Positions 12,803-43,724 of a stretch of 64,000 nt of DNA are shown here, piece by piece. Source of the DNA: Sulfobacillus acidophilus (GTDB lineage: Bacteria > Bacillota > Sulfobacillia > Sulfobacillales > Sulfobacillaceae). The translations under genes and the position numbers were made by a program. Location of the stretch: contig PXYV01000002.1 in the NCBI GenBank assembly GCA_003023745.1, positions 62,001-126,000 of the forward strand, read 5' to 3'. The notes under the pieces were generated by a model, which saw nothing but the letters and a program-made list of their open reading frames with translations, did not search any database and had not been told where the DNA came from. Within the stretch, counting starts at the first letter, position 1. Each line of letters starts with the position of its first letter.

Positions 12803-13954
12803 TTATCCTTCAATGTCCTTGCGCAATTGCGCGGCAATAATATTCTTTTGAATTTCGGAGGTTCCTTCGTAGATACGGGTAATGCGGGCATCGCGATAAA
12901 AGCGTTCAATGGGGTAGTCGGCGATGTATCCGATACCACCATGAATTTGCACAGCTTTGTCGGCAACGCGGTTATACACTTCTGATCCGTACAGCTTTAA
13001 CATGGCGGCTTCTTTGATCACATTTGCACCTTGGTCGACTAGCCAGGCGACGTGATAGGTCATCCAACGGAGCGTTTCAATTTCTGTGGCCATGTCTGCT
13101 AAATAATGCTGGATCACTTGCTGATCGAAAATGGGCTTGTTAAACTGGTGGCGCTCCAAGGCGTATTGGGTTGACCGTCGCAAAAGATATTGGCATGACC
13201 CCAGCGAGCGGGCCGCCAGGCCGGAGCGTCCGTTGGCCAGTATCTTGAGGGCGTTGACATAGCCTTCGCCTTCTGGTCCTAGGCGGTTTTCTTCGGGAAT
13301 TTCAACGTCCTCAAAAAATATTTGGGCCGTATGTGAACCACGTAGTCCCATTTTTTTCTCAACGGTGCCCACCCGAAAGCCGGCAAATTGGGGCTCGACA
13401 ATGAATGACGTGATGCCCTTGGCGCCCCTGGTGGGGTCGGTGACCGCCATGACGGTAAAGACTTGGGCTTCGGGGGCGTTGGTGATGAAGACTTTTTGGC
13501 CATTTAAAATATAGCGGTCGCCTTTTTTGACGGCGCGGCTTCGTAGCGCAGCGGCGTTGGAACCCGCTTCGGGTTCGGTTAGGGCAAAAGCCCCAAGCCA
13601 TTCACCTGTCGCCATCTTGGGAAGATAGCGCGCTTTTTGTTCGGCGTTGCCAAAAGCGACAATTCCGACGGAACCGATGCCGTTGTGCGCGCCCAGAATG
13701 GTTGTATAGCCATTGATCGTCTGCCCTAACTCTTCAAAAATGGCGCACTTGTCCACCATGTTAAGGCCTAATCCCCCGTATTCCTCGGGAATGCTTAGCC
13801 CGAACAACCCTAGCTGCCTTGACTGCTGCAAAATCTCTTCGGGTACGTGGTCTTGCTCTTCAATTTGGGCAGCTTTGGGCTCCACTTCGTGGGCAATAAA
13901 GTCCGCAACGGCCGACTTCATTTGCAGAATTTCGGGCGAGAGGGTGAATTCCAA
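12803..13954 (-). CDS. Acyl-CoA dehydrogenase
   Basis: The FAD-dependent enzyme introduces an alpha,beta double bond into an acyl-CoA and passes electrons to ETF. At 383 residues it is full length. Signatures are GAFALTEPEAGSNAAALRS near residue 125, the ACAD C-terminal block (QIHGGIGYIADYPIERFYRDAR) and the catalytic Glu context IYEGTSEIQ at the usual position near residue 365. The start is TTG 13954 with GGAGGAG seven bases upstream. It is monocistronic: an IS630 remnant lies downstream, a gene-free stretch upstream. The catalytic Glu position is that of short/medium-chain enzymes, but the exact acyl chain (butyryl, isovaleryl and so on) cannot be told. Confidence 0.92.
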   Translation of the reverse strand: MEFTLSPEILQMKSAVADFIAHEVEPKAAQIEEQDHVPEEILQQSRQLGLFGLSIPEEYGGLGLNMVDKCAIFEELGQTINGYTTILGAHNGIGSVGIVAFGNAEQKARYLPKMATGEWLGAFALTEPEAGSNAAALRSRAVKKGDRYILNGQKVFITNAPEAQVFTVMAVTDPTRGAKGITSFIVEPQFAGFRVGTVEKKMGLRGSHTAQIFFEDVEIPEENRLGPEGEGYVNALKILANGRSGLAARSLGSCQYLLRRSTQYALERHQFNKPIFDQQVIQHYLADMATEIETLRWMTYHVAWLVDQGANVIKEAAMLKLYGSEVYNRVADKAVQIHGGIGYIADYPIERFYRDARITRIYEGTSEIQKNIIAAQLRKDIEG

Positions 13955-14699
13955 GGGCAGTCTCCTCCATTATGTGATCGCGAAAATTAATTAGGAGCTG
14001 CGATCTATCTCGGCGATGTAACTCACCATTATGTTAGCACGCTCAGCCTGGAGTTCCTAGCGACCAATGTTGGCATTCTCCGAGGACCCAGATGGGGAAC
14101 CATCGATGCAAACAAGGGGCCATGGTCTCGGCCCGGCAGCGGGCCACCGAGTACAAGTTTGGGGAGAGGGGCTGCGAAATACAATTGTTTCCTGTGACTG
14201 TATGGTCGCTATCCTCTGTTGACGGCAAGCATTATGACCCCAACAATCATGGAAATGCAGTTATCCACGCTGCGCTGTCAAGGAGTCCTTCATGAGCCGA
14301 CCCTTGACAGATTGTGAATTTGTGGGAAAACTCGGCCGTTGCCGATCATGCCGTCTGACTACTATTGGCGAGTGAACGGGTCGTTTCGCGCGAAAACGAC
14401 TGCGGACGACCGACTCGGTTCCGCCGAAGTGCCCCAAACAGTTCGAAGTTACAATCTTGGGACGCCGGGGTGTGCTGGAGCAACAGCGTGCCTGAGTATT
14501 CGTCACTAGTAGGGTTTTTGTGGTGGAACCTAACCCCTGGCGTCACGATTGTGTCAAACCACAAGAATTCTTGCTGGCCAAGGATATGTATCCACTAGCT
14601 CCGAATCCCAGCTGTCAAAAGTACGTGAAGGCTCTGACGCGTAAAGACTGGTTGGCGACTGTGCGGTCAGTGCCATCACTGAAAAGAGGGGGTTCAATC
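13955..14699. other. Gene-free divergent spacer with inverted repeats
   Basis: This spacer lies between the minus-strand acyl-CoA dehydrogenase and the plus-strand zinc dehydrogenase. Two perfect inverted repeats stand out: 9-bp arms at 14275-14283/14302-14310 and 7-bp arms at 14380-14386/14394-14400. No gene with a ribosome binding site was found. Promoters for both flanking genes should lie here, but no convincing -35/-10 pair was identified. Confidence 0.4.
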
Positions 14700-15833
14700 G
14701 TGAAAGCTGTTGTTTACGAAAAGCCATTTCAGGTGACAGTGCGGGACGTGCCGGATCCAAAAATCCTGCATCCGTCTGATGCCATTGTCAAAATTACGAC
14801 AAGCTGTATCTGCGGGTCGGACCTGCACATGTATGAAGGACGTACGGCTGCCGAACCGGGAATTGTATTTGGTCACGAAAATATGGGGATCATCCAAGAG
14901 GTGGGGTCAGCAGTCAGTCGTCTCAAGGTGGGTGACCGCGTGGTGATGCCGTTCAACATTGGGTGTGGTCACTGCCAAAACTGCGAGGCGGGATTTACTG
15001 GATTTTGCACCGAAGTAAATCCGGGATTTGCCGGAAGTGCCTACGGCTATGTTGCAATGGGGCCATATCCCGGGGGCCAGGCGCAGTACTTACGCGTGCC
15101 TTGGGCGGACTTTAACGCGCTATCACTGCCGGCGGGCACAGAACACGAAGAAGACTTTGCGCTGTTAGCGGACATATTTCCGACCGGATGGCACGGAGTG
15201 ACCTTATCGGGATTTCAGCCCGGAGAATCTGTCGCGGTATTCGGGGGTGGACCGGTTGGTGCCATGGCTGCCTATAGTGCCGTCTTGCGCGGGGCATCAG
15301 AAGTGTATTTGGTGGACCGCGTGCCGGAACGGTTGGCCAAGGGACGATCTATTGGCGCGATTCCCATTAATTTTGAGGACGGTGATGCCGTTGACCAGAT
15401 TCTGGCTTTGCGACATGGAGCCATGGTTGACCGAGCTGTGGATGCCGTGGGATATCAGGCGGTTCAAAATGGGAAAGAAGTCCCAAACACAGTTTTAGTG
15501 TCTATGGTTCGTGTCGTCCGGGCCACAGGTGGATTGGGAGTACCAGGCCTTTACGTTCCCTCTGACCCGGGTGGTGTGGATCCATTAGCCAAAGAAGGTT
15601 TCTTGTCATTCCCGGTGGGCAAGTTTTTCGAAAAAGGGCTGAAGATGGGTACCGGACAGTGCAATGTCAAGTCGTATAATCGCTATCTGCGTGACCTGAT
15701 CATCGTGGGAAAGGCCCAGCCTAGCTTCATTGTCTCGCACCAGATTACCATTGATGAAGCGCCCGACGCCTATCGAAAATTCGATCAGCGCATCGAAGGC
15801 TACACGAAGGTCCTGATCCACCCCAACAGTTAG
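14700..15833 (+). CDS. Zinc-dependent alcohol dehydrogenase, formaldehyde-dehydrogenase-like
   Basis: This medium-chain dehydrogenase of 377 residues has the catalytic zinc ligands in CICGSDLHMYEG and GHEN, and the structural-zinc cysteines in GCGHCQNCEAGFTGFC. A Rossmann motif (VFGGGPVGAM) lies near residue 180. The long inserts and the C-terminal part match the glutathione-independent formaldehyde dehydrogenase (FdhA) group, which oxidises formaldehyde or other aldehydes with NAD. The start is set at GTG 14700 because AGAGGGGG precedes it and the conserved domain begins there. The longer frame from 14520 has no similarity. A strong terminator follows at once. The true substrate is not certain. 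Confidence 0.85.
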   Translation: MKAVVYEKPFQVTVRDVPDPKILHPSDAIVKITTSCICGSDLHMYEGRTAAEPGIVFGHENMGIIQEVGSAVSRLKVGDRVVMPFNIGCGHCQNCEAGFTGFCTEVNPGFAGSAYGYVAMGPYPGGQAQYLRVPWADFNALSLPAGTEHEEDFALLADIFPTGWHGVTLSGFQPGESVAVFGGGPVGAMAAYSAVLRGASEVYLVDRVPERLAKGRSIGAIPINFEDGDAVDQILALRHGAMVDRAVDAVGYQAVQNGKEVPNTVLVSMVRVVRATGGLGVPGLYVPSDPGGVDPLAKEGFLSFPVGKFFEKGLKMGTGQCNVKSYNRYLRDLIIVGKAQPSFIVSHQITIDEAPDAYRKFDQRIEGYTKVLIHPNS

Positions 15834-16738: not shown

Positions 16739-17863
16739 TTACGATCCGTGGAATCTGTGGATGTTCTCTAGCAAGGTATGACCTTCCAATGCCATCCACA
16801 GATTAGTTAGCTGTTCGGTGTCTTTAATTGTGATGCCGAGCAGCTTTTCGGCGTGATGCACCCGATACAAGACGGTATTGGGATGCACATAGAGATTGTG
16901 CGCTGTTTTAGATAGAGATTGTCCACACGCCAAGTACTCTTTGAGGGTGGCTAAAGTCGCTTGGTGTTCGTCCTGTAATAGTGGGCCAAGAACGGTGTTG
17001 ATTAAATCTTCCAAACTCTCGGGTGTCATTTGCAGGAGAAAGCGAATCATGTGACGCTCGACTGCATCATTGATGAGACCGTCTAAGCCAAATCGGTTAG
17101 CGAACTGCATCAACGACTGGGTTTCCTTCAAAATTTCCGGGAATGCCGTTAAGTTCGGCATCATTTGCAGATAGGCGCGGATGGGGAATGTTGCTTCGCG
17201 TGTCCACTGGTCCAACCAATGCTCGACGTGATACCGGGATTTCTCCCGAGACCAAGGCTGTAGGATGAGAAGACCATCGGGAAGATACGCTAGCCATGGG
17301 AATTGACGGCGGTAGCGCCACGCTTGGGCAATGAGATAGCGTCGCAACACTTCCATGCCCTGAAAGGGGATCGGCATCGCCGTCTCGAATGCCATTAGCG
17401 CCTTACCTGCGCTATCGTCTAGACCGCAGAGCGATAAAAGTTGAACAACCTCCGGCGTCAGGCCGTACTCCATGACGAGTCGCACTTTTTCACCGCGGCG
17501 TTCCGCTTCGGTTTCGGCCCATTCGGTCAACTCCATGATGGTTAGCGCTGTTTTTAAGAGCAGCGTTTGAAATGGCTTGCTTTCGCCGAGGGACGTCGTA
17601 TCAAAAGCACTGACAAGCGTCGCAAACACCTCGCCATGAAGAACCAGCGGGTGACGGTACCTAAGTCCTAAAGTCTGGTGCTCGGATGTCGCGATACAAA
17701 GCGGAATGCCATAGCGATCGTACAAGACAAAATTAGGGGTGTTCAAGAAGTCTGTCCATTGATCGATAAGGGTTTGCAACTCGTCCAATAATTCATTGCC
17801 GTAGGCAACGGCTGTCTGTACCATGTGTTCCCATTCGCTCGGATTTATTAACGGCATTGTCAT
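16739..17863 (-). CDS. PucR/CdaR-type transcriptional regulator
   Basis: The C-terminal ~60 residues form the PucR-family helix-turn-helix (TLKEYLACGQSLSKTAHNLY, then HPNTVLYRVHHAEKLLG), which in this family activates purine-catabolism or sugar-acid genes. The preceding ~310 residues are an effector-sensing region without a clear named domain. The start is placed at ATG 17863, where GAGGAG lies seven bases upstream. The 34-residue longer version from 17965 has no ribosome binding site. It converges on the aquaporin. Its target could be its own gene, the aquaporin/dehydrogenase pair or the distant nucleoside operon; the sequence does not decide. Confidence 0.85.
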   Translation of the reverse strand: MTMPLINPSEWEHMVQTAVAYGNELLDELQTLIDQWTDFLNTPNFVLYDRYGIPLCIATSEHQTLGLRYRHPLVLHGEVFATLVSAFDTTSLGESKPFQTLLLKTALTIMELTEWAETEAERRGEKVRLVMEYGLTPEVVQLLSLCGLDDSAGKALMAFETAMPIPFQGMEVLRRYLIAQAWRYRRQFPWLAYLPDGLLILQPWSREKSRYHVEHWLDQWTREATFPIRAYLQMMPNLTAFPEILKETQSLMQFANRFGLDGLINDAVERHMIRFLLQMTPESLEDLINTVLGPLLQDEHQATLATLKEYLACGQSLSKTAHNLYVHPNTVLYRVHHAEKLLGITIKDTEQLTNLWMALEGHTLLENIHRFHGS

Positions 17864-18433
17864 AATAAGCTCCTCATAAAAATCGGTTGGGCATACGATG
17901 ATATCGGCTGGGTTTTGAATCACACATATAATATGGATTCTCGCCATATCGCCTCGCCCGTCCATTTCTCATGCATGTGGAGCTCGAAGAGAGGGCGTGG
18001 CGTCTCGTTCTATAACGATCGAAAGCATTCATCGACAGCTCGAAAATTATCAATCGACATTATTATAACAGAATTCTCAGTTATATCGATCTGCGCATGC
18101 CAATATTTGTTAAATTCGACGCTTGTGCGATACCTGCCGTGCGATTGGCACAACTCCGTGGATAAAGCCCGTTCCTGGCGTCGAACTGTCTTAGAAGGTG
18201 CTCTTCAGTGATATTCCTCACAACCGTTCGGTCGTGGACCGAATGGGCAGCGTAGCCACATACGTTTCGGACCGTGCGCGGCCGTATGAGATAGACAGTG
18301 GTTGAGATGCGCGTTGACGGCACGACGCCATGCGTTTGGCCTCCGACAAGCCGATTCGAATGAGGAGCAAGGGATCCTTGGTGCGTTGGCCAAACCGTAG
18401 ATACCCATCGGCTGGTGTTGTCCCAAGCTCCGA
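17864..18433. other. Gene-free stretch with a nested palindrome
   Basis: This is the upstream region of the PucR-type gene and the downstream region of the membrane-protein gene. TATAAC and GTTATA arms enclose the palindrome AGAATTCT at about 18060-18085, a possible operator about 200 bases before the regulator. Nothing else is convincing. A 118-codon minus-strand frame (18081-18437) lacks motifs and a ribosome binding site. Confidence 0.4.
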
Positions 18434-20522: not shown

Positions 20523-21284
20523 ATGGAGCCGGTTAGCTATGTTGTCACAGACGGAATTGCCGTCATTACGTTAAATCAGCCTGAGCGGCGCAACGCGTTG
20601 AGCGCCGCTATTCGAACCGGACTGCGGGAGCGATTTGAGCAGTTTAATGCCGATGGTGCGGCGCGCGTGGCGATTGTCACGGGGGCAGGAACGAAAGCTT
20701 TTTGCGCGGGAGCCGACTTGAAGGAAATGGCCGAGGAGTCGATTGGCCTGCCCGGCCGCGATTTCATGCCAATTTTGAACCGCAATATCTGGGTCGACAA
20801 GCCGGTGCTGGCTGCGGTCAACGGCGCGGCATTGGGCGGTGGATTTCTGTTGGCGATGATGTGTGATTTGGTGGTAACCGTCGAGCATGCCATGTTTGGC
20901 ATGCCGGAAACCAAATGGTCCCGTGGGGCACCCTGGTCCGTGCCCTTGAGTTGGATGATCCCTCAACGCATATGGATGGAAATGGCCTTGACCGGTGAAT
21001 CCATTGACGCGCATCGGGCGTACGCGATCGGCCTGGTCAATCGCATTTCAACGCCTGAGCACTTGATGGCCGACACCATCCAGCTTGCCGCAAAGATTCG
21101 CGACAATGCTCCGCTCACGGTGAACGCGACGCGACGGATGATTTATATGACCACCGAAATGGGACGAACGGCTGCGTGGGATGTGGCCGATGCGCTGTTT
21201 GAGCGGGTCTACAGCAGCGAGGATGCGATAGAAGGGCCCAGGGCATTTCGGGAACAGCGACTCCCGCAGTGGAAGGGGCGATAG
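20523..21284 (+). CDS. Crotonase-family protein (enoyl-CoA hydratase/isomerase)
   Basis: The 253-residue crotonase fold has the CoA-binding and oxyanion-hole segments TKAFCAGADLKEM and NGAALGGG. The residue that corresponds to the first catalytic Glu of enoyl-CoA hydratase is Leu here (GGGFLLAMMCD instead of GGGxELAMxCD), while the second Glu (FGMPET) is kept. Hydratase activity is therefore doubtful; isomerase, hydrolase or decarboxylase chemistry is possible. It is the first gene of the acyl-CoA cluster, two bases before the AtuA-like gene. The start ATG lies after a weak AGG site. The crotonase family is certain, the reaction is not. Confidence 0.85.
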   Translation: MEPVSYVVTDGIAVITLNQPERRNALSAAIRTGLRERFEQFNADGAARVAIVTGAGTKAFCAGADLKEMAEESIGLPGRDFMPILNRNIWVDKPVLAAVNGAALGGGFLLAMMCDLVVTVEHAMFGMPETKWSRGAPWSVPLSWMIPQRIWMEMALTGESIDAHRAYAIGLVNRISTPEHLMADTIQLAAKIRDNAPLTVNATRRMIYMTTEMGRTAAWDVADALFERVYSSEDAIEGPRAFREQRLPQWKGR

Positions 21285-21286
21285 GG

Positions 21287-22624
21287 ATGAAGGAGACGGT
21301 AAGGATAGGCTGGGGTTCCGCATATGCCGATGATAATCTGGACCCGGCAGAGGACTTAGCCCAATTTGGGCGCCTTGACGCGCTTTGTTTTGACGCGCTG
21401 GCCGAGCGTACCCTGGCCTTGGCGCAAATCCGGCGCCGCCACGATCCTCTCCAAGGTTACGATTTGCGGTTGGACGAGTTCGGCCGGCGCTTTTTGCCCT
21501 ACGCGGCGCAGGGCCTAAAGCTTGTCACGAACATGGGAGCAGCCAACCCGATGGCTGCGGCTCACCGTCTCTCACAGATCGCCCAGGAAATGGGACTTGG
21601 CACCGTACGCATTGCCGCGGTCACTGGAGACGACGTTACCGATGCCATTTTGGCGTTAGATCCGCTGTTAGACGAAAATGGCCGGGCGTTGTCGCAAATG
21701 CCAGGCAAACCCGTGTGTGCCAATGCCTATATTGGGGCCGAGCCCTTAGTGCAGGCCTTAAATCAGGGGGCTGATGTGGTCGTTGGGGGGCGGATCGCCG
21801 ATCCTTCCCTAGGGCTGGCAGTGCTGCGCCACGGTTTCGGGTGGTCCGACACCGATTGGAATCGTCTGGGCCAAGGCATCGTGGTTGGACATGTATTGGA
21901 GTGCGGCACGCACGTCACTGGGGGGAACTTTGCCGATCCCCCCTATCGTGTTGTTCCCCACCTTGACCGCCTGGGCATGCCGTTAGCGGAAGTGAAGGGC
22001 GATGGGTCAGCCATCATTGGCAAGCTTGACTCTTCGGGCGGCATGGTGACGACGGAAACGGTTAAGGCTCAACTTGTCTATGAGATTCACAACCCGGCCC
22101 AGTACTTCACACCGGATGTCACTGCTGATTTCTGTGGCGTGGAAGTGCTGCCGATTGGCCCGGATCGGGTAATGGTCGTGGGAGGCCGGGGCACCGCGCG
22201 TCCGCAAACGCTTAAGGTATTGGTCGGTATTGATGAGGGATGGCATGCAGAGGCAGAGATTTCGTTTGCCGGTCCAGGCGCCTATGAGCGGGCTCGGTTG
22301 AGTCAGCAGATCCTCTTGCAACGCGTCGAGCATTACGACCGCCAGGACGTCGCGGAGGTGCGTTGCGACTTAATTGGTATCAACGCCATCTTTGGTCCGG
22401 CAAGCCCTCAGCCTGCGAGTTTTCCTGAAGACGTGCGAGTGCGATTGGCGGCTCATACCTGGCACCAAGACACGGCCGAACGTTTGACGCGTGAGGTCGA
22501 GTGGCAATATTTTGGTCCCTCGGGCGGGGGAGGGGTACGCCGTCGGGTGACGCCACGGCTGGCCATGTACAGTACGCGTATCGATGCGCAGGCCGTACGG
22601 CCTCGCGTCGCGTTCATTGGTTAG
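21287..22624 (+). CDS. AtuA-like protein (DUF1446, acyclic terpene utilisation)
   Basis: This 445-residue member of the AtuA/DUF1446 family has characteristic segments IGWGSAYADDN at the N-terminus, KLVTNMGAANPMAA near residue 80 and GGRIADPSLGLAVL near residue 170. AtuA is required for citronellol/geraniol degradation in Pseudomonas, and relatives occur in many acyl-CoA operons; the reaction is not established. ATG 21287 is chosen because AAGGGG precedes it. The start 18 bases upstream overlaps the crotonase stop. It is followed by its usual small partner, which in other bacteria can be fused to it. Confidence 0.88.
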   Translation: MKETVRIGWGSAYADDNLDPAEDLAQFGRLDALCFDALAERTLALAQIRRRHDPLQGYDLRLDEFGRRFLPYAAQGLKLVTNMGAANPMAAAHRLSQIAQEMGLGTVRIAAVTGDDVTDAILALDPLLDENGRALSQMPGKPVCANAYIGAEPLVQALNQGADVVVGGRIADPSLGLAVLRHGFGWSDTDWNRLGQGIVVGHVLECGTHVTGGNFADPPYRVVPHLDRLGMPLAEVKGDGSAIIGKLDSSGGMVTTETVKAQLVYEIHNPAQYFTPDVTADFCGVEVLPIGPDRVMVVGGRGTARPQTLKVLVGIDEGWHAEAEISFAGPGAYERARLSQQILLQRVEHYDRQDVAEVRCDLIGINAIFGPASPQPASFPEDVRVRLAAHTWHQDTAERLTREVEWQYFGPSGGGGVRRRVTPRLAMYSTRIDAQAVRPRVAFIG

Positions 22625-22635
22625 GAGGTGCAGTC

Positions 22636-22992
22636 ATGCGTGTATCCTTGCGGGAAGTGGCTTACACGCGTTCGGGGGACAAAAGCGACACATCCAACGT
22701 GGGGGTGGTCCCATATCGTCCGGACGATTTGGCGTGGTTAGAGCGCGAATTGACGGTCGATCGGGTGCGCGAAGCGTTTTCGGGGCTCGTTGTAGGAGAT
22801 ATTCGCCGCTATGTTCTACCCGGCATTCACGCCTTGAACTTTGTCATGGAGCATGCCTTAGGCGGTGGCGTCTCACGCTCGCTCAATTTGGACGCGCATG
22901 GCAAGTCCTGGGGGAATCTGATGCTGTCGATGGAAGTCGAGGCGCCACAGGGCTGGTCGCCGGCTTGGCCGGAGGTGTCGGCCCATGACTGA
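22636..22992 (+). CDS. Small AtuA-associated protein (AtuA C-terminal-like domain)
   Basis: The 118-residue protein matches the domain found at the C-terminus of longer AtuA proteins. The sequence begins MRVSLREVAYTRSGDKSDTSNVGVV at the start, of which SGDKSDTSNVG is the recognisable motif, and ends with HALGGGVSRSLNLDAHGKS. TAGGAGGTG precedes ATG 22636 at ideal spacing. It overlaps the next gene by eight bases. It presumably forms a complex with the AtuA-like protein, giving the two halves of one ancestral polypeptide (inference). No catalytic residues can be assigned. Confidence 0.85.
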   Translation: MRVSLREVAYTRSGDKSDTSNVGVVPYRPDDLAWLERELTVDRVREAFSGLVVGDIRRYVLPGIHALNFVMEHALGGGVSRSLNLDAHGKSWGNLMLSMEVEAPQGWSPAWPEVSAHD

Positions 22993-25000
22993 GCCCATAC
23001 TTTGGACACCGTCGTCAGACCGCGTGGCTCAGAGTCATTTGAGTCGATTTTTAGGGTGGCTTCGTGGTCAAGGCCACCCGTTTGCCGACTACCAGGAATT
23101 GTGGGAGTGGTCGACCAGCGATCTGGAGAATTTCTGGGAAGCCGTCTGGCACTATTTTGCCTTACCGGATCGTGGCGACGGTCCGGTGTTGTCCTCTCTT
23201 AAGATGCCTGGCGCACGCTGGTTTGAGGGTGCGCGCGTGAATTATGCTGAACAATTACTGCCGCGATTTTCTTCCCAAGAGACGATGCTGGTGTCGATCA
23301 ACGAACGGGGTGGCCGACAAGAGTACTCGCGCGCAGATGTTGGGCGGGAAATAGGAGGGCTGCAGGCGCAAATGAGGCGTTGGGGGATTTCGTCAGGTGA
23401 CCGCGTCGCTGCCTACCTTCCCAACATTCCGCAAACGGCCATCGCCTTTATGGCGGCAGCGGGAATGGGCGCTATCTGGTCGGTCTCATCGCCCGATTTT
23501 GGGGTTGCGAGCGTGATTGACCGATTTCGGCAGCTTGAGCCGCGCCTATTGTTCGTGGTCGATGGCTACTGGTATAACGGCACCTGGTATGATCGCCGCA
23601 ATGAGTCAGCTCAGATTCGAGACGCCTTGCCTACTGTTGAGCATGTGATCACCGTCAGCAGCGAGATGGTTGCCTCGTCATGGATGAAGGAGGCGCTTTC
23701 GTGGGAGGAGGCCGTTCAGCAACCTTCCGATCCGATATTTTTACCACTGGATTTTTCCCATCCGCTCTGGGTTTTGTATTCGTCGGGAACCACTGGCCTT
23801 CCAAAACCCATCGTGCATGGTCACGGTGGGATGCTGCTGAGTCACTTAGTGAACATTTACTTTCACTTAGACGTGCATCCCGGCGATCGCTTCTTTTGGT
23901 TTTCCACGACTGGCTGGATGATGTGGAATGTGTCGATGAGTGCGCTCTTGGCCCGCGCTGCCGTTTATCTCTATGACGGTAGCCCGGCGGCCGCAGGCAT
24001 GAACACGTTGTGGGAAATGGCGAGTCGCGAGCGATTAACCGTGTTCGGGACCAGTGCGGCCTTTTTGCAGCAAAGTATGAAGGCCGAATTGCATCCGCGA
24101 CGGGACTTCGATTTGTCTGCCTTAACGACGATTGGGTCTACCGGATCGCCTTTATCGCCGGAAGCCTTCGAGTGGGTCTATCGCGATGTTAAACAAGATG
24201 TATGGCTAGCACCCGCGAGTGGGGGCACCGATATCTGCGGAGCCTTTGTGGGAGGCTGTCCCCTGCGGGAGGTGCGCTTGGGCGAAATGCAGTGCCGAGT
24301 TTTGGGGGCGCGGGTGGAGGCGTTCGATCCGCAAGGCCATTCCCTCGTCGATGCGGTGGGAGAACTGGTGGTGACGAAACCAATGCCCAACATGCCCCTT
24401 TATCTTCTGGGCGATGCGGATTTTTCCCGCTATCGGGAGAGCTATTTTGGGCCATATCCCGGGATATGGCGCCACGGCGACTGGATTCGCATTACGCCGA
24501 CGGGTGGGGCGGTAATTTACGGTCGTTCCGATTCGACCATTAATCGGTATGGTGTGCGCATGGGATCGAGCGACATCTATCGTGCGGTTGACACAGTACC
24601 GCAAGTGGACGACAGCTTGGTGGTCGACGTTGAGGCTCGGGGTGGTCAGTCGTTCATGCCGCTGTTTGTCAAGGTGAGGTCGGGAGAGGTGTGGGACGAG
24701 TCGTTGGAGACTGCGATTCGCACGGCCATTCGCACCCGCCTCAGTCCACGTCATGTGCCGGATGTCATTGTGAATGTGCCGGATATTCCCAAAACGTTGA
24801 GCGGGAAAAAACTGGAGGTGCCGATTAAGAAAATTCTGATGGGCGTACCAACTGCGCGAGCAGTAAATTTAGACGCGATGGCCAACCCCGAAAGTTTGGC
24901 GGCGTATCTCGACTATGCACGTCAGTGGCAAGACCGCCTTCGTCCTCAGAATAGCGTGTGGTTTGGGGACAACGATGAGAATGGGGGACATGGGCAATGA
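22985..25000 (+). CDS. aacS: Acetoacetyl-CoA synthetase
   Basis: The 671-residue ANL-superfamily ligase activates acetoacetate to acetoacetyl-CoA with ATP. The length, the N-terminal ACAS_N-like region (ENFWEAVWHYF), the P-loop LYSSGTTGLPKPIVHGHGG near residue 260 and the C-terminal Lys (KTLSGKKLEVP) fit this subfamily better than acetyl-CoA synthetase. It overlaps both neighbours (8 and 4 bases), so the operon is translationally coupled. In context it would recover acetoacetate released from a leucine- or terpene-type pathway. Propionyl or other beta-keto acid specificity is possible. Confidence 0.85.
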   Translation: MTEPILWTPSSDRVAQSHLSRFLGWLRGQGHPFADYQELWEWSTSDLENFWEAVWHYFALPDRGDGPVLSSLKMPGARWFEGARVNYAEQLLPRFSSQETMLVSINERGGRQEYSRADVGREIGGLQAQMRRWGISSGDRVAAYLPNIPQTAIAFMAAAGMGAIWSVSSPDFGVASVIDRFRQLEPRLLFVVDGYWYNGTWYDRRNESAQIRDALPTVEHVITVSSEMVASSWMKEALSWEEAVQQPSDPIFLPLDFSHPLWVLYSSGTTGLPKPIVHGHGGMLLSHLVNIYFHLDVHPGDRFFWFSTTGWMMWNVSMSALLARAAVYLYDGSPAAAGMNTLWEMASRERLTVFGTSAAFLQQSMKAELHPRRDFDLSALTTIGSTGSPLSPEAFEWVYRDVKQDVWLAPASGGTDICGAFVGGCPLREVRLGEMQCRVLGARVEAFDPQGHSLVDAVGELVVTKPMPNMPLYLLGDADFSRYRESYFGPYPGIWRHGDWIRITPTGGAVIYGRSDSTINRYGVRMGSSDIYRAVDTVPQVDDSLVVDVEARGGQSFMPLFVKVRSGEVWDESLETAIRTAIRTRLSPRHVPDVIVNVPDIPKTLSGKKLEVPIKKILMGVPTARAVNLDAMANPESLAAYLDYARQWQDRLRPQNSVWFGDNDENGGHGQ

Positions 25001-26535
25001 CACATGCGGAATTAAGCCAGGCGCTGTTTACACGGCTTAAACAAGCGCAACAGGGAGGCCCGCAGAAATATCACGACCGCCTTCATGAACAGGGAAAACT
25101 GGGGGTGCGCGAACGCATCGGGCGATTTTTGGATCCAGACAGTCCCTGGATGGAGGATGGTCTCTTAGCTCGCACCCTGGATGAGGGGCTGCCTGGTGAT
25201 GCGGTAGTCACAGGGGTCGGCATCATGCAGAACCGACCGGTGGCCATCATTGCTAATGATCCCACCGTGAAAGCGGGCGCTTGGGGACGGGTGACGGTGC
25301 AAAAAATTCTTCGCATGCAGGATTTGGCACTGAAAGCCAAAGTGCCGCTAGTCTATATGCAGGACTCCGCCGGAGCCCGGCTGGATGAACAATTTGATAT
25401 ATTTCTCGACCGGCGCCACGCCGGCAAGATCTTTTATAACCAGATTCAAATGTCCGGCGTTATTCCCCAAGTCTGCATTTTGTTTGGGCCTTCTCCGGCC
25501 GGGGCCGCCTATCTGCCGGCTTTTTGCGATTTAGTCATCATGGTAGATGGCCACAGTTCCAGTTTCATCGGTTCCCCACGGATGGCCGAGATGGCTACCG
25601 GCGAAAAGGTCTCCATGGAGGACTTAGGCGGAGCCCGCATGCATTGTATGCAGAGTGGGTTGGGTGACTTGCTGGCGGTCGCGGAAGAGGAGGCTATTGG
25701 TCTAGCTACTCAGTTTTTGACCTATCTTCCCAACAGTTGGGAAGAAGAGGCGCCTGTGGCCGCGAGTCGCCCACCCGCATCAGCCCTAACCGTGGAGGAG
25801 ATTGTGCCAGCCGAGCAGAACGTGCCTTACGATGTGCACGATCTGATCGCGGCACTGGTGGATGAGGCTTCCTTTATGGAGTTAAAACCGCTGTTTGCTC
25901 CAGAACTGGTCGTGGGGTTGGCCCGTCTAGACGGTCGAGTTTTGGGGGTGTTGGCCAATCAACCGAAAGTGAAAGGCGGCGTGTTGTTTTCGGACTCGGC
26001 TGACAAGGGAGCATGGTTTGTTCAGCTTTGTCACGCCTATGGCGTGCCGCTTTTATTTCTGCAAGATGTCTCCGGTTTTATGGTGGGATCGGCGGTGGAG
26101 CGCCAGGGGATCATTCGCCATGGCGCCAAAATGCTGTCTGCGGTCGCTTCGGTTACGGTGCCGCGCATTGCGGTTTTAGTCCGCAAAGCTTATGGGGCCG
26201 GGTATATGGCCATGTCAGGCGCTTCCTTTCAAACGGACATGGTTTTGGCGCTGCCGACCGCCAAAACGGCCATTATGGGTCCGGAAGCCGCGATTAATGC
26301 CGTTTACTTTAATAAGATTCAAGAGCTCCACGGCGATGAGCGGGCCGCCTTTATAACAGCCAAACGTGCTGAATACGAAAGTCGGCTCGATATTCTCAAT
26401 GGCGCCTCGGAGTTTTTCGTGGACGCTGTCATTCCGGGATCGTGCTTGCGCGAGGAACTCATCTTTCGCTTTGGGTTATTGCACAACACGCGGGAAGCGT
26501 ACATGCCGAAGCGGACGATGGTCATTCGGGGGTGA
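24997..26535 (+). CDS. Acyl-CoA carboxylase, carboxyltransferase (beta) subunit
   Basis: This 512-residue member of the biotin-dependent carboxylase transferase family has N- and C-terminal crotonase-like halves. VYMQDSAGARLDEQFDIF and the GPSPAGAAYLPAFCD segment form the acyl-CoA site of the N half, and GAGYMAMSGASFQTD that of the C half. The N half resembles methylcrotonyl/geranyl-CoA carboxylase beta chains, in line with the AtuA-like neighbours. It transfers carboxyl from carboxybiotin to the acyl-CoA. It starts inside the previous gene (ATGA overlap). No biotin carboxylase/BCCP alpha subunit gene lies in the window, so its partner must be elsewhere. Propionyl-CoA is an alternative substrate. 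Confidence 0.88.
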   Translation: MTHAELSQALFTRLKQAQQGGPQKYHDRLHEQGKLGVRERIGRFLDPDSPWMEDGLLARTLDEGLPGDAVVTGVGIMQNRPVAIIANDPTVKAGAWGRVTVQKILRMQDLALKAKVPLVYMQDSAGARLDEQFDIFLDRRHAGKIFYNQIQMSGVIPQVCILFGPSPAGAAYLPAFCDLVIMVDGHSSSFIGSPRMAEMATGEKVSMEDLGGARMHCMQSGLGDLLAVAEEEAIGLATQFLTYLPNSWEEEAPVAASRPPASALTVEEIVPAEQNVPYDVHDLIAALVDEASFMELKPLFAPELVVGLARLDGRVLGVLANQPKVKGGVLFSDSADKGAWFVQLCHAYGVPLLFLQDVSGFMVGSAVERQGIIRHGAKMLSAVASVTVPRIAVLVRKAYGAGYMAMSGASFQTDMVLALPTAKTAIMGPEAAINAVYFNKIQELHGDERAAFITAKRAEYESRLDILNGASEFFVDAVIPGSCLREELIFRFGLLHNTREAYMPKRTMVIRG

Positions 26536-26540
26536 TGGAC

Positions 26541-27170
26541 ATGAGTGAGACAGTAAGCCGCTTGGCGCAACGCAAGGCCAAGCGACGACAGGAGATATTG
26601 CAAGCGGCAGCCCAACTATTTTCGCAGCGCGGCTATGACGCAACGACGGCCGATGCCATAGCCGAGGTCGTCCATTTGACGAAATCGGCGCTGTACACGT
26701 ATGTCGGTAGCAAGGAAGAAATTGCGGTCTTGTTGCTAGAACAGGTGGTTGAACAGCTGTTGCATAACGCCCGCGAGATTGAAAGCGAGCCGGTTTCGCC
26801 GGTCGACAAGCTGTATCGCCTGATTGTGCGTCATGTAGAAGTCATCGGACATCACCCGGCATCGTCGCTGCTATTCTTGCATTCCGAACACATTTTGTCG
26901 GCGGCACAGTATCCTCGCCTATATGCACTTCGAGATCAATACGAAGCCTTGATCCGGCAGTGGATTGCTGAAGGGAAAGCGGCAGGGATATTTGATGTCC
27001 GTGACGTGCGTATTGCCGGGTGGCTCATGTTGGGGAGTTTAAACTGGGTCATTCGCTGGTTTTCACCGCAAGGAACCCTGTCAACCGAATCGATTGGACA
27101 TGAATATGCGCGAATTCTGCTGCGCGGACTGTCTTCAGAGAAAAAGGAGCAACAGCAAGAGGAGGCGTGA
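26541..27170 (+). CDS. TetR-family transcriptional regulator
   Basis: The protein is 209 residues long. The N-terminal HTH (RRQEILQAAAQLFSQRGYDA, then TTADAIAEVVHLTKSALYTYV) is a clear TetR DNA-binding domain. The C-terminal half resembles the FadR/LiuR-type TetR ligand-binding domain. It lies in the middle of the acyl-CoA operon and probably represses it until an acyl-CoA binds (inference). ATG 26541 is preferred since GGGGTG lies six bases upstream; ATG 26535, overlapping the previous stop codon, is an alternative. The candidate operator at 20479-20507 is the obvious site to test. Confidence 0.9.
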   Translation: MSETVSRLAQRKAKRRQEILQAAAQLFSQRGYDATTADAIAEVVHLTKSALYTYVGSKEEIAVLLLEQVVEQLLHNAREIESEPVSPVDKLYRLIVRHVEVIGHHPASSLLFLHSEHILSAAQYPRLYALRDQYEALIRQWIAEGKAAGIFDVRDVRIAGWLMLGSLNWVIRWFSPQGTLSTESIGHEYARILLRGLSSEKKEQQQEEA

Positions 27171-27172
27171 TC

Positions 27173-28321
27173 ATGACCCATACCGAAGAGCAGGCGGCCA
27201 TGTTGAACACCGTGGACAAGATCGCGGATCGCTTTGGCCACACCTACTGGTTAGAGCATGCACGGGCAGGTACTTTTCCAAAGAAATTGTGGGCGGAACT
27301 TTCCCAAGCCGGTGTAATGGGTCTGGCTTTGCCGGAACGCTATGGGGGGAGCGGTTTAGGGCTCTTTGAGATGGCTTTAGTGCAAGAACGTCTGGCTGAG
27401 CGGGGTGTGCCGTTGCTGTTGATGGTCGTAGGACCGGGCCTCAGTCTTATGATTATGGCGCGCCATGGGAGTCAGTCGCTCAAGGAGCGTTTTCTGCCGC
27501 AGGCGGCCCAGGGTCGCAAAATTTTCTGCTTTGGGATAACAGAGCCTAACGCCGGGTCCAACACCTTGAAAATTTCGACGACAGCCACGGCGCGCCATGG
27601 GGAGTGGATTGTCACTGGATCTAAACATTTTGTGAGTGGTGCCGACCAGGCTGATTACATGCTAGTTGTCTCGCGGACCGCGCCGTACCAAGCAGGCCGA
27701 CACGATACCTTGACGCTTTTCGTCGTGGATATGACCGATCCACGGGTTCGTCTGCGAAAGCAGCCGATGCATTTGCTGACGGCGGAGCACCAATTTGAAG
27801 TGGTATTTGACGACGTTATCGTTCCCGACGCCGACCGTATCGGAGAAGTAGGCGAAGGATTTCGGTATCTCTTTGACGGATTAAATCCAGAACGCATTAA
27901 CGTCGCGGCGCTGGCAATCGGCATGGGTCGACGACTGCTGGATGCAGCGGTGGGTTATGCCAGCCAGCGGCAAGTCTTTTCATATCCCATCGGCGCGCAT
28001 CAGGCTATTCAACATGCCCTGGCCGAAGCCAAAATTCATTTAGAATTAGCCAATCTGATGAACCACTATGCGGCCAAATGTTATGACAGGCAGGAAGATG
28101 CGGGGGGTTGGGCGAATATGGCCAAGGTTGGAGCGGTTGATGCGGCATTGGAGGCGGCTGACATTGCGATTGAGGTGCATGGCGGCAATGCGTTTACCGA
28201 AGACTACGATTTGCTGTCGCAATGGGAACTGTGTCGGCTGTTCAAGACTGCTCCGGTGGCCCGTGAGTTGGCGTTAAACTATGTAGGCGAGCATGTTCTG
28301 GGGTTGCCGCGGTCACGTTAA
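27173..28321 (+). CDS. Acyl-CoA dehydrogenase-like protein, variant catalytic segment
   Basis: The 382-residue member of the acyl-CoA dehydrogenase superfamily has the N-domain, the FAD/substrate loop FCFGITEPNAGSNTLKIS near residue 125 and the C-terminal HGGNAFTEDYDL segment. At the place of the usual catalytic YEGTSEIQ the sequence reads LFKTAPVARELALNYVGEHV, a form known from a subgroup of actinobacterial-type FadE proteins. The general base may therefore sit elsewhere. ATG 27173 follows GAGGAGG at ideal spacing, two bases after the TetR stop. A role in branched-chain or terpene acyl-CoA oxidation is inferred from the operon. Confidence 0.85.
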   Translation: MTHTEEQAAMLNTVDKIADRFGHTYWLEHARAGTFPKKLWAELSQAGVMGLALPERYGGSGLGLFEMALVQERLAERGVPLLLMVVGPGLSLMIMARHGSQSLKERFLPQAAQGRKIFCFGITEPNAGSNTLKISTTATARHGEWIVTGSKHFVSGADQADYMLVVSRTAPYQAGRHDTLTLFVVDMTDPRVRLRKQPMHLLTAEHQFEVVFDDVIVPDADRIGEVGEGFRYLFDGLNPERINVAALAIGMGRRLLDAAVGYASQRQVFSYPIGAHQAIQHALAEAKIHLELANLMNHYAAKCYDRQEDAGGWANMAKVGAVDAALEAADIAIEVHGGNAFTEDYDLLSQWELCRLFKTAPVARELALNYVGEHVLGLPRSR

Positions 28322-28368
28322 TTTGCGACCGCTAACCGGCGAATTTATTGGAGAAAGAAGGGGTTTCC

Positions 28369-29961
28369 ATGTCGTTGCCATCGACCACGCGCCGTGACCA
28401 CGAGTCTGAGACGGCGTTCTTAGCGCGGTTGCACGAACGGTATCAGGGCCCAGCGACCATGGATCGGATGTTGTTTACGAGCGTTGCGGCTAATCCGGAC
28501 AAAGTTGCGCTGGTGGACGGACAAGGTCGGCGACTTACGTATCGGCAGTTGGGGGATGAGGTGTCGGCTTTGAGTTCAGGCTTAGCGGCACGCGGCTTGT
28601 CCGCTGGGGACCGCGTGGCCGTCATGATGCGCAGCCATGCCCGCTATGTCGAAAGCTATTATGCCATTATTACTGCGGGCATGGTGCTCGTGCCGCTCAA
28701 TGTGCGTTTAGCGCCTCCGGAGCTTTCCTACATTTTGGCAAATGCCGGCGTCAAAATGGTGTTGGCGGACCGCGAGTTTGAATCGGTGGTTAGCGCAGCG
28801 TTTCAAGAGGGGCATACCAATCTGCCGGTGGTGTGGACGGAACCGGGTGAGGGGAGTGCTTTTGACAGCCTCTTGCAGCCTGGCACCGGCGTGCCTGCAC
28901 AAATCGCTGAAGATTCATTAGCTGCAATATACTATACATCGGGGACGACAGGTCGACCCAAGGGGGCCATGATTACGCATCTCAACATGGTGGCGGTGGG
29001 TCAACAAAATGTGGAGGCGTGGTACTTTGACTCCCCCGAAGTGGTGGAGCTCGAAATCTCTCCCCTGTTTCATGTGTCGTTTCAAGAGTTTGGCCCGACG
29101 ATCCACGCTGTAGGCGGCACTCTGGTCGTGGACAACTTTTCTCCCAGCCGCAGCCTCGACTTGATCGAACGGGAGAAAATCAACTCATTCTTTGCGGTGC
29201 CCTCCATGTTGTTCATGATGATGGCGGAATTGGCTAAAACTCCGCGCGATGTCTCGTCGGTTCGCATCGTCAAATACGGGGGGGCCCCGATGCCACAAGA
29301 TAAGCTGCGCGAGCTCAGCGATGTGTTTGGCGGTGCACTCTTAGTGCAAGGATTCGGTCAAACCGAGTCCACTGGGATGATTGCGGTAACTTGGCCGGAT
29401 GAGGTGACTCAATACCCGCTATCGACCGGTCGCGCCATCTCAGGTTGTGACATCCAGATTGTCGATGATGATGATAGGCCACTTAAGCGCAATCAAGTGG
29501 GCGAGGTCATCGCCCGCGGGCCGCAAGTGATGGCTGGGTACTGGCAAAATCCCGAAGCTACGGCCGAGACACTTCGAAACGGCTATCTACACACAGGCGA
29601 TCTGGGTTATTTGGACGATGGCGATCGTTTGTACATTGTTGACCGGAAAAAAGATTTGATCATTCGTGGGGGACAAAATATCTATTCAGCTGAAGTCGAA
29701 GAGGCTATTTACAGCCATCCGGCGGTGGCGGAGGTGGCGGTGGTTGCGAAGCCGGATCCGATTTTGGAAGAGGTGGTCGCTGCCTTTATTCGCCTGAAAC
29801 CCAATACCAGTGCCACCGAGGCTGATCTGGCTCAACATCTGGAAGGACGCATTGCCGTGTATAAACGGCCCGTGGCTTACTATTTTGTCGAGGATTTTCC
29901 GCGCACCGCCAGTGGCAAGGTACGCAAGGTGGAGTTGCGGGAACGGTTGGCACAGGCTTAG
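28369..29961 (+). CDS. Acyl-CoA ligase (AMP-forming)
   Basis: The 530-residue ANL enzyme makes acyl-CoA from a free acid, ATP and CoA. The AMP-binding motif YYTSGTTGRPKGAMITHLN lies near residue 190. The A5/A8 region reads HTGDLGYLDDGDRLYIVDRKKD, and the C-terminal catalytic Lys is in RTASGKVRKVE. ATG 28369 is preceded by GAAGGGG; the frame from 28348 would begin inside that site. It lies 47 bases after the dehydrogenase, so it is the last gene of the cluster or a readthrough partner, and it would supply the CoA thioester that starts the pathway. Chain length preference is unknown. Confidence 0.9.
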   Translation: MSLPSTTRRDHESETAFLARLHERYQGPATMDRMLFTSVAANPDKVALVDGQGRRLTYRQLGDEVSALSSGLAARGLSAGDRVAVMMRSHARYVESYYAIITAGMVLVPLNVRLAPPELSYILANAGVKMVLADREFESVVSAAFQEGHTNLPVVWTEPGEGSAFDSLLQPGTGVPAQIAEDSLAAIYYTSGTTGRPKGAMITHLNMVAVGQQNVEAWYFDSPEVVELEISPLFHVSFQEFGPTIHAVGGTLVVDNFSPSRSLDLIEREKINSFFAVPSMLFMMMAELAKTPRDVSSVRIVKYGGAPMPQDKLRELSDVFGGALLVQGFGQTESTGMIAVTWPDEVTQYPLSTGRAISGCDIQIVDDDDRPLKRNQVGEVIARGPQVMAGYWQNPEATAETLRNGYLHTGDLGYLDDGDRLYIVDRKKDLIIRGGQNIYSAEVEEAIYSHPAVAEVAVVAKPDPILEEVVAAFIRLKPNTSATEADLAQHLEGRIAVYKRPVAYYFVEDFPRTASGKVRKVELRERLAQA

Positions 29962-31664: not shown

Positions 31665-32819
31665 TTAGGTGGATCTTCCTGACCTCCAAGCGGTCCGAGT
31701 CAACCGTGATCCCGTCTTTTTTTGCCGCTCTTCATTGGCTAACTCGTTCGCTAGCGCCACGATCGCACGGGACAAGGGTGAATTCTCCTCGTGTGTCACA
31801 AATGGTACGCCTTGGTTGGCGGCGCGCACGGGCATATTGCCAGCACTTGGCAAATCGAAGATGCGGGGGATCTTGAGAATAGTTGCGACATCGGCTCGTT
31901 CGATGCCGGTTTTCGAGCCGGTGCGATTGAGCACTAGTCGGATCTTCTCGGCGGGATAGCGAAAGCTTTCGCGAAACAGGTTGAGTGCTTGTCCAACGGC
32001 GCGCAACGTGACCACATCAGGGGTGCAGAGAGTGAGGATGGTGTCACTGATATCTAGCCCAATGATGTTGGTTTCTTGGTATCCCGGTGCTAGGTCAAGC
32101 ACGACGAACGCGTAGTCTTCACGCAATGTCTGAATAATCTCGACCAATTCATTGCCGGGAATATCTTCTGCTTGGTCGGGTGTAAGCGGCGCAGCCAGCA
32201 CATGGACATTGCCTGGAGCTGGGATAAGTGCGGCCTTCAGTTGGGTGGGGTCGGTTACAACATCGTGAATCGTCAATTTGGGACTTAAGGCCAACATGGT
32301 GCAAACGTCGCCAAATGCCAGATCGAGGTCAATGATTGCCACGGGTTCATGGTTGCGTTCTGCTAACGCGACGGCGAGATTAACGGCCAAGGTTGTTTTG
32401 CCGACACCGCCTTTCGAAGAGAAAATGGACAATACCTGGCCTAGTTTGCGGTCGCGGGGATATAGTGGGCGCGCCACGCGTTCAAGGGCACCTAAAAGTT
32501 CAGTAGGCCAATCATGTGCGGCGATTAAATCTTTAGCTTTGATATCTAACGCGTAGCGCGTGGCGACAGATAGTTCGGAAGTGGCCAGCAACACAATAGG
32601 GTACGGAGTGCTACAAAGTTCTTGCGCGATCCCTGGGGCCTTTTGCAAAAGACGGTCATCGAGCACGACAACGCCTGGAACATCTCGTGCACAATCCGCC
32701 AGTGCGGTTTTTAGATCAGCACTGGAACCGAGCAGAACAACATCTTCCGGACGTTCCTTGAAGTAGGTCACCAAGTTGTCGCGTTCCGGCGACTTTGCGG
32801 CAATGTACAATGAAAACAT
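31665..32819 (-). CDS. CpaE/TadZ-like ATPase of the Tad pilus (copy 1)
   Basis: The 384-residue protein has an N-terminal response-regulator-like domain (about 1-120, VVVLDD in the receiver position) and a MinD/ParA-type P-loop ATPase (IFSSKGGVGKTTLAVNLAVALA near residue 135), with AIIDLDLAFGDV and VVLDLAPG in order. TadZ/CpaE proteins place the pilus machine at the cell pole. The start ATG 32819 follows AAAGGCGGG. A second CpaE-like gene lies at 40288 on the other strand; both keep intact Walker motifs. It is downstream of tadE/tadG-like genes on the same strand but 800 bases away. Confidence 0.85.
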   Translation of the reverse strand: MFSLYIAAKSPERDNLVTYFKERPEDVVLLGSSADLKTALADCARDVPGVVVLDDRLLQKAPGIAQELCSTPYPIVLLATSELSVATRYALDIKAKDLIAAHDWPTELLGALERVARPLYPRDRKLGQVLSIFSSKGGVGKTTLAVNLAVALAERNHEPVAIIDLDLAFGDVCTMLALSPKLTIHDVVTDPTQLKAALIPAPGNVHVLAAPLTPDQAEDIPGNELVEIIQTLREDYAFVVLDLAPGYQETNIIGLDISDTILTLCTPDVVTLRAVGQALNLFRESFRYPAEKIRLVLNRTGSKTGIERADVATILKIPRIFDLPSAGNMPVRAANQGVPFVTHEENSPLSRAIVALANELANEERQKKTGSRLTRTAWRSGRST

Positions 32820-40287: not shown

Positions 40288-41418
40288 ATGCTCACTGTGC
40301 ATATTTTGGCTAAGCCGGGTATCATGAGTCTTGTGTCGACTGCTCTTGTTGGCGATTCCGAGATTAGTTTGGAATTGCGTACTAATAATCTGCGTGAGAT
40401 CTTGGGATTTCAGTATCGAGACGTACGCGACCTTCTTATTGTAGACGACGCGATTTTAAGCGAGGCGCCGGGTTTGGTGCAGTCAGTGGCTGATTTACCG
40501 TGCCGCAAACTCTTAATCGGATCTTTGAGCGATATGGAGGCTGCTCGTCGGGCCTTAACGTTACAGTCAACGGCCATTGTCGAAGCCGATCGCGTGAATG
40601 ACGATTTGGTTGCGGTCGTAAAAGCGTTGTTAGACCCTCCAGTGACTCGCGAACCATGGGTTGCTGCCATTTATTCCGCCAAGGGTGGCGTGGGAAAGTC
40701 GACTTTGGCGTTAAATTTGGCGTGGGCCTTAGCTATGTATTCGGAGTTTAATGTAGCCCTGATTGATTGTGATCCGCTGGGAGACATTGGGGCTATGATT
40801 CAGGAGAGACCGGGGGCTACTTTGTCTGATCTCGTTCGCGGTTTGGGAGCCGGAATGGACGACGACCGGGCGTTGCAGAGTTTGTATCGCGTTCAGGCAC
40901 TGGGGCTGACTATTATACCGGCAGAACCCAATGCCCAAAGGGCGCTGGAACTGCGTTCGGCGGATTTGGAGCGGGTCTTGGCATTAGTCCGACAAACACA
41001 TGGATACGTGGTGTTGGATTTGCCTATCGGTCTCACCGATCTCAATTTAACCGCGTTAGATCATGCCACTGATATCATTGTCATGGCGGCTCCGGAACGC
41101 GTTACGCTGGGCACTGTACGACGTTCTTTAGATATTCTGCATCGCTTCTATTCGGGTAAGATAGCGGTGCTGCTAAATCGGGCGGATTCTGACACCGGTC
41201 TGACCGATGGGGACATTGAACAGGCTTTAGCTCATCCTGTGCAATATGTACTGCCCAGTGGAGGGAGTTCGCCGGTGCGGGCTAGCAATACAGGAAGGCC
41301 GCTGGTCTTGTTTGATCCCAAAAATCCGCTGGCGAAGTCCATTATTGCGATGGCGCAAGAGATTGCTGGACAGCGTGAAGGCGTGCGGCGCAGGCCGCGA
41401 CGCTGGCTTATACGCTAG
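40288..41418 (+). CDS. cpaE: CpaE/TadZ-like ATPase of the Tad pilus (copy 2)
   Basis: The 376-residue protein has an N-terminal receiver-like domain (LLIVDD) and a MinD-type ATPase with YSAKGGVGKSTLALNLAWAL near residue 130, ALIDCDPLGDIG and VVLDLPIG. AGGAGG precedes ATG 40288. It lies in the assembly operon between cpaB and cpaF and is the positional cpaE. It differs clearly from copy 1, whose deviant-Walker motif region reads AIIDLDLAFGDV. Both copies keep the catalytic Lys, so both may be active. Confidence 0.9.
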   Translation: MLTVHILAKPGIMSLVSTALVGDSEISLELRTNNLREILGFQYRDVRDLLIVDDAILSEAPGLVQSVADLPCRKLLIGSLSDMEAARRALTLQSTAIVEADRVNDDLVAVVKALLDPPVTREPWVAAIYSAKGGVGKSTLALNLAWALAMYSEFNVALIDCDPLGDIGAMIQERPGATLSDLVRGLGAGMDDDRALQSLYRVQALGLTIIPAEPNAQRALELRSADLERVLALVRQTHGYVVLDLPIGLTDLNLTALDHATDIIVMAAPERVTLGTVRRSLDILHRFYSGKIAVLLNRADSDTGLTDGDIEQALAHPVQYVLPSGGSSPVRASNTGRPLVLFDPKNPLAKSIIAMAQEIAGQREGVRRRPRRWLIR

Positions 41419-41429
41419 GAGGACAGCCC

Positions 41430-43708: not shown

Positions 43709-43724
43709 AAGAAGGGATGATGGC

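Follow-up and report, generated by a model that had tools for sequence, protein, structure and literature searches.

A compact acyl-CoA operon of Sulfobacillus acidophilus with a split AtuA pair as candidate lyase and no biotin carboxylase of its own

A run of eight genes (positions 20523–29961) in a 64,000-nucleotide stretch of Sulfobacillus acidophilus DNA (positions 62001–126000 of contig C41 in draft genome G000; hereafter the window) encodes a set of acyl-CoA enzymes together with both parts of an AtuA protein. The reading that we favor, and hold to be rather better than an even bet, is that this operon specifies a pathway for removal of beta-methyl branches, in which the AtuA pair serves as the lyase and the alpha part of the carboxylase is borrowed from the single biotin carboxylase (BC), AccC. 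A CoA ligase and an acyl-CoA dehydrogenase would produce a 3-methyl-2-enoyl-CoA; the carboxyltransferase (CT), loaded by AccC via a biotin carboxyl carrier protein (BCCP) encoded elsewhere, would carboxylate the methyl branch; a crotonase would hydrate the carboxylated product to a 3-hydroxy-3-alkylglutaryl-CoA; AtuA-N and AtuA-C, as the two subunits of a lyase with the citramalate lyase fold, would cleave that compound in place of 3-hydroxy-3-methylglutaryl-CoA (HMG-CoA) lyase; and an acetoacetyl-CoA synthetase would re-activate the released acetoacetate or a close 3-oxo acid. The enzyme order reproduces leucine/isovalerate chemistry, with AtuA in the place of HMG-CoA lyase, and the presence of the synthetase suggests that a 3-oxo acid, most probably acetoacetate, is released in free form. 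The order of the reactions, the substrate, and the polarity of the cleavage are those that we infer; the substrate is most likely a 3-methyl-branched acyl-CoA, whether short or long, which would make this a route for the breakdown of methyl-branched fatty acids.

Gene content and layout of the operon

All eight genes lie on the forward strand. The crotonase, or enoyl-CoA hydratase (20523–21284; PF00378, E = 6.8e-52), is proposed from its operon position to be a 3-alkylglutaconyl-CoA hydratase, the exact substrate being presumptive. The gene for AtuA-N, the large subunit of the proposed lyase (21287–22624; PF07287, E = 3.5e-131), has its ATG 2 bp past the hydratase stop codon, with an alternative GTG start at 21269 in the list of open reading frames, and is followed by the gene for AtuA-C, the ferredoxin-like part and proposed small subunit (22636–22992; PF23544, E = 2.1e-32). 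Downstream are an acetoacetyl-CoA synthetase, or acetoacetate-CoA ligase (22985–25000; NF002937, 906.8 bits, cut-off 639; TIGR01217, 742.3 bits, cut-off 520.9); the CT (beta) subunit of an acyl-CoA carboxylase (24997–26535; PF01039, E = 5.1e-143); a TetR-family regulator (26541–27170; PF17932, E = 2.1e-30; PF00440, E = 1.6e-13); an acyl-CoA dehydrogenase, the proposed maker of the 2-enoyl-CoA (27167–28321; PF00441, PF02770, PF02771); and an AMP-forming acyl-CoA ligase, the proposed activating enzyme (28348–29961; PF00501, E = 1.7e-86; NF004837, 486.5 bits, cut-off 476). Because consecutive genes are separated by only −8 to +26 bp (2, 11, −8, −4, 5, −4, and 26), we regard the eight as one operon-like unit.

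A first-pass annotation of this DNA had named the same genes, the TetR regulator excepted, and had likened them to the Liu and Atu enzyme sets; all of the genes are where it placed them, and the gene content supports the likeness. It had also remarked on the lack of an alpha subunit. A Pfam scan finds no BC, BCCP, or HMG-CoA lyase among the eight operon proteins, so the beta chain must, in line with one of the two options of that annotation, borrow its alpha part. The gap within the cluster is real, and its likely fillers are the AtuA pair for the lyase and the single AccC for the alpha part.

The AtuA pair as a candidate lyase

The first-pass annotation had counted the lyase as missing, a view that does not fit the resemblance of the AtuA pair to a citramalate lyase. 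As a single sequence, AtuA-N has a weak match (E = 0.11) to PDB 9erq, a member of the AtuA family that bears the name citramalate lyase subunit A (CmlA); a profile of 21 AtuA-N proteins reaches the same entry at E = 2.3e-11, and by this profile AtuA-N and CmlA are homologs. The predicted structure of AtuA-N (predicted local distance difference test, pLDDT, 90) aligns with chain A of PDB 9evf over 413 of 451 residues (Z-score 31.6, root-mean-square deviation 3.5, 18% identity; Foldseek E = 2.5e-24), and beyond 9evf the comparison returns single-domain ferredoxin-like matches only, the next row having a Z-score of 9.2. Of the 60 columns in the aligned stretch that show at least 90% conservation across the 21 AtuA-N proteins, 30 have the identical residue in CmlA, compared with 65 of 289 when every position of the window protein in the alignment is counted. 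Modeled alone (pLDDT 87), AtuA-C has as its first Foldseek match chain B of 9evf (E = 1.4e-4, template modeling [TM] scores 0.60/0.67; next match 5.5e-3); the likeness of this protein, whose gene adjoins that of AtuA-N, to the small chain is thus at the level of fold only. With AtuA-N matching CmlA and, in a separate search, AtuA-C matching the small partner chain of that complex, the two together are a predicted C–C lyase that probably takes the HMG-CoA lyase slot. The window pair and the citramalate lyase share a two-subunit architecture and the fold of both parts; they differ in substrate and are only ~18% identical in the structural alignment, and the window pair sits in an acyl-CoA operon. 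According to its entry title, the 9evf crystal contained ADP and pyruvate, and by analogy the nucleotide site of AtuA could hold the ADP part of CoA. In the relevant parts of two papers, AtuA is already tentatively carried as the lyase of the Atu pathway (PMC4847356, PMC9973270), and the corresponding part of a review assigns the lyase step of acyclic terpene degradation to LiuE instead (PMC4097962). That AtuA-N and AtuA-C each match one chain of a citramalate lyase of known structure provides a structural basis for the AtuA assignment, and a compact operon with split AtuA genes makes it directly testable.

Within a set of 61 genomes (this one and 60 relatives), AtuA was detected in 24, with 25 matches including the one in the window. 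Twenty of the 24 other places were examined (those in G030, G033, G052, and G053 were left out), some of the stretches ending at contig ends. Three relatives' loci (L050, L053, and L056) contain all eight genes in identical order, so the arrangement is not due to chance, and in all four eight-gene loci AtuA-N and AtuA-C sit between the hydratase and the synthetase. A CT lies near AtuA in 16 of the 20 loci; BC, BCCP, and HMG-CoA lyase lie near it in none. That the neighborhood method can detect alpha chains is clear from three control loci of Pseudomonas with a fused AtuA (L166, L167, and L168), all of which have a CT, a dehydrogenase, a hydratase, and an alpha chain that combines BC and BCCP parts. 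A wider scan of named genomes covered the best 80 of 568 confirmed AtuA loci, mostly proteobacterial and biased to the closest sequences. An HMGL-like match was nearby in two of these 80, a weak BC-like match (67 bits) in one, and a CT in one; the AtuA pair is accordingly not bound to this type of substrate. Recurrent Pfam-named neighbors were transporters (TctC, TRAP, MFS, and ABC), CoA transferase, and short-chain dehydrogenase, and three of ten neighbor representatives scanned had no Pfam match. Such neighbors say little about carboxylase clusters, but they fit a lyase of organic acids. In Bacillus sp. OK048 (L171/L067), AtuA-N and AtuA-C lie beside ligases, a dehydrogenase, and a hydratase, with no CT nearby.

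The canonical Pseudomonas Atu cluster (atuABCDEFGH) resembles the window operon in bringing together AtuA, a CT, an acyl-CoA dehydrogenase, a crotonase, and a TetR regulator, and in having no HMG-CoA lyase, which is absent from all three canonical atu loci that we read. A CoA ligase, AtuH, also belongs to the Pseudomonas atu operon as described in part of PMC4847356. In Pseudomonas, however, the two AtuA parts are fused into a single protein and 3/3 loci include an alpha subunit, whereas the window operon has a split AtuA and no alpha subunit (AtuF); conversely, the acetoacetyl-CoA synthetase of the window is matched in 0/3 of the Pseudomonas loci. With the leucine/isovalerate (Liu) cluster and the Bacillus yng-type set the operon shares the order dehydrogenase, carboxylase, hydratase, lyase, and acetoacetate, as well as a CT lineage of the Bacillota methylcrotonyl-CoA carboxylase (MCC) type, but it has the AtuA pair in place of HMG-CoA lyase and neither BC nor BCCP. 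Among the best-ranked results from the open-licence literature, we found no description of an AtuA operon lacking an alpha subunit.

Biotin carboxylase supply and lineage of the carboxyltransferase

The search for an orphan alpha subunit that the first-pass annotation had proposed yielded a BC and no dedicated alpha chain. The only BC in the genome is a 448-residue AccC on contig C1, which scores over the accC cut-offs. Genome-wide there are three CTs and, among 11 biotin/lipoyl matches, two stand-alone BCCPs, one beside the CT on contig C65 and one beside the CT on contig C2; both carry the MKM biotin motif. (The C65 CT adjoins epimerase-like and mutase-like genes, both named from sequence and not by search.) Available to the window CT are thus AccC on C1 and the BCCPs on C65 and C2, and it probably borrows its alpha part from this AccC, in what would be a physical AccC–BCCP–CT complex.

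The same economy is seen in most of the family. In 34 same-family genomes (G000–G033), with frames of ~1,200 residues set aside as presumed pyruvate carboxylase, exactly one BC was counted in 31; there was none in G028 (71% complete) and there were two in G015 and G033. Two or more CT matches, fragments included, occur in 26 of the 34, and 24 of those 26 have exactly one such BC. AccA/AccD-like matches of 60–75 bits were obtained from all six comparison genomes but from none of the 34, in which the sole low-scoring rows were fragments of one broken gene of G024. Acetyl-CoA carboxylation in the family must therefore rest on PccB-type CTs, unless the search missed AccA and AccD. Given one BC, several CTs, and no AccA/AccD-like match in the family, the single BC probably serves all acyl-CoA carboxylases, fatty acid synthesis included, insofar as gene counts are a guide. 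In G013, G021, and G026, which have the same eight-gene operon, the small frames of stand-alone BCCPs neighbor other CTs, ones that are not linked to AtuA (G026 showing only one such frame); in G041, two candidate BCCPs, whose open frames are long, likewise lie, judged by position, by CTs without an AtuA link. G024 has one BC and ten CT matches, the latter on contigs C31, C41, C47, C69, C134, C137, and C181; a single broken gene on C137 accounts for three of these matches. In mycobacteria, the part of PMC5407890 that treats AccA3 describes a single alpha subunit that works with AccD4, AccD5, and AccD6. The family resembles that system in having one BC-bearing subunit for several CTs, the sharing here being read from gene counts only, and differs in that AccA3 carries BC and BCCP in one chain whereas BC and BCCPs are separate proteins in the window genome. 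As a case of many carboxyltransferases sharing one biotin carboxylase, the lineage is a simple one.

By phylogeny, the window CT groups with CTs of the Bacillota MCC type and apart from Pseudomonas AtuC and LiuB (support of 0.960 at the node joining the window type, the Bacillus/Fictibacillus/C2 type, and the CTs of L059–L061), and it is 54.7% identical to the C2 CT. For the Pseudomonas enzymes, sections 8 and 9 of PMC4673880 describe a substrate gate that is Phe in MCC and Gly in geranyl-CoA carboxylase (GCC), which is three residues shorter there. We equated the gate Phe with the F of HFG, going by where it lies in the human chain and by the described insertion; under this presumed correspondence, the gate of the window CT is Ala142 (codon 25420–25422), at MCC length, and so neither the Phe of MCC beta nor the Gly of GCC beta. 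The three-residue MCC-type insertion before the gate is kept in the window CT and absent from two Pseudomonas AtuC proteins, in which the gate is of the Gly type. Ala also occurs in the C2 CT and in Bacillus and Fictibacillus CTs that have a BC match in the same locus, so that the gate says nothing firm about chain length, and the criterion of Phe at the gate for MCC beta may fail in Bacillota. For this reason, we dropped the idea that the gate Ala signals a larger substrate. Three specificity Phe residues are named for the mycobacterial MCC in the pertinent part of PMC4347857, and two of them are kept in the window CT, as read by eye from the alignment. AtuA-linked CTs fall in several lineages of the tree (the window type, L059–L061, the L048 group, the L047/L055/L058 group near the propionyl-CoA carboxylase type, and AtuC), which suggests that AtuA has been combined with different carboxylases. 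We can conceive, with somewhat less than even confidence, of AtuA pairs as a second type of 3-hydroxy-3-acylglutaryl-CoA lyase that is widespread, has a fold with no relation to that of HMG-CoA lyase, and was recruited with at least four CT lineages, and of the branch-removal operons of this family as having the CT for their sole dedicated carboxylase part, with one AccC serving every acyl-CoA carboxylase, that of fatty acid synthesis included.

Alternative pathways and neighboring genes

The first-pass annotation had allowed that an alpha subunit and a lyase elsewhere, with clear leucine-degradation partners, would reduce the operon to a scattered standard pathway. Half of this is found. Contig C2 holds a leucine-type set of BCCP, CT, HMG-CoA lyase, enoyl-CoA hydratase, and two acyl-CoA dehydrogenases, and AccC is on C1. 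Five HMGL-like matches occur genome-wide, three of which were scored by NCBIfam against the HMG-CoA lyase cut-off of 246 bits; that of C2 (L019:9290–10303, 360.6 bits) and that of L008 (281.4) pass, and that of L009 (234.2) falls just below. One could therefore suppose that the window set is redundant and uses the HMG-CoA lyase and BCCP of C2, with AtuA unrelated to the pathway, a view with which the nearness of the window CT to the C2 lineage and the acetoacetate-CoA ligase at the end of the route would agree. We think this unlikely: the C2 set is already full, with its own hydratase and dehydrogenases; the AtuA pair has a lyase fold; and its place between hydratase and synthetase is kept in every eight-gene locus. 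Having its own CT, hydratase, dehydrogenase, and ligase, the window cluster is better seen as a second, parallel set than as a scattered part of the C2 pathway. Since C2 holds the leucine-type set, the task of the window operon is probably the breakdown of a different 3-methyl-branched acid, or of the same acid under separate regulation; in line with the earlier suggestion of a new substrate, the real one may not be leucine.

A true acyclic terpene pathway of the citronellol/geraniol type, with a geranyl-CoA carboxylase, appears more doubtful still. An AtuA family protein, CT, hydratase, dehydrogenase, and ligase do occur together as in atu clusters, and the gate residue is small where GCC has Gly; yet the CT retains the MCC insertion and branches with the Bacillota MCC-type CTs rather than with AtuC, the Ala shared with Bacillus, Fictibacillus, and C2 CTs is no sign of a large substrate, and the eight operon proteins include no short-chain dehydrogenase of the AtuB/AtuG kind. 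We give very little credence to the remaining proposal, also raised in the first-pass annotation, that the beta chain acts without an alpha subunit, as a biotin-dependent decarboxylase or transcarboxylase. The cluster lacks an alpha subunit, and the NCBIfam model that fits the CT best is mmdA, with a score of 411 bits where 999 are required; however, AccC and two BCCPs are present in the genome, and most family genomes pair several CTs with one BC. A genome search for the beta subunit of sodium-pump decarboxylases (PF03977) gave no matches, and a decarboxylase role was rejected.

Several observations count against the branch-removal pathway that we prefer. Compared with solved structures, the operon dehydrogenase and hydratase give generic matches (the closest solved chains of the dehydrogenase are generic acyl-CoA dehydrogenases), and for neither is the best match an enzyme known to be specific for isovaleryl or methylglutaconyl substrates. 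At the level of sequence profiles, AtuA-C does not match the partner of CmlA, the likeness being one of fold with modest TM scores; citramalate differs from the proposed substrate, and the predicted lyase role of the window proteins rests on homology and fold. Were the products of AtuA acetate and a 3-oxoacyl-CoA, as described for the Atu pathway, the acetoacetyl-CoA synthetase would be superfluous. Among the relatives, the same-order locus L063 is a variant that gives no match for the synthetase, TetR, or the dehydrogenase, and four of the 20 AtuA loci (L057, L064, L065, and L066) have no CT nearby; in the named-genome scan, most of the nearest-sequence AtuA pairs lie outside carboxylase clusters. 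Finally, the draft genome (3,675,767 bases in 128 contigs) is only 89.58% complete.

Elsewhere in the window, a second acyl-CoA dehydrogenase (12803–13954, reverse strand) lies near an alcohol dehydrogenase (14520–15833) and a PucR-type regulator (16739–17965). A 532-residue protein (46054–47652, reverse strand) matches the Pfam Cas12f1-like TNB domain (PF07282, E = 2.7e-7) and is probably a transposon protein of the TnpB type. A secretion ATPase (PF00437, E = 2.5e-67) is found within a run of same-strand genes (40288–44654, forward strand), which together with a MinD/CpaE-like gene (31665–32819, reverse strand, judged from its sequence alone) may represent a Tad-like pilus set.

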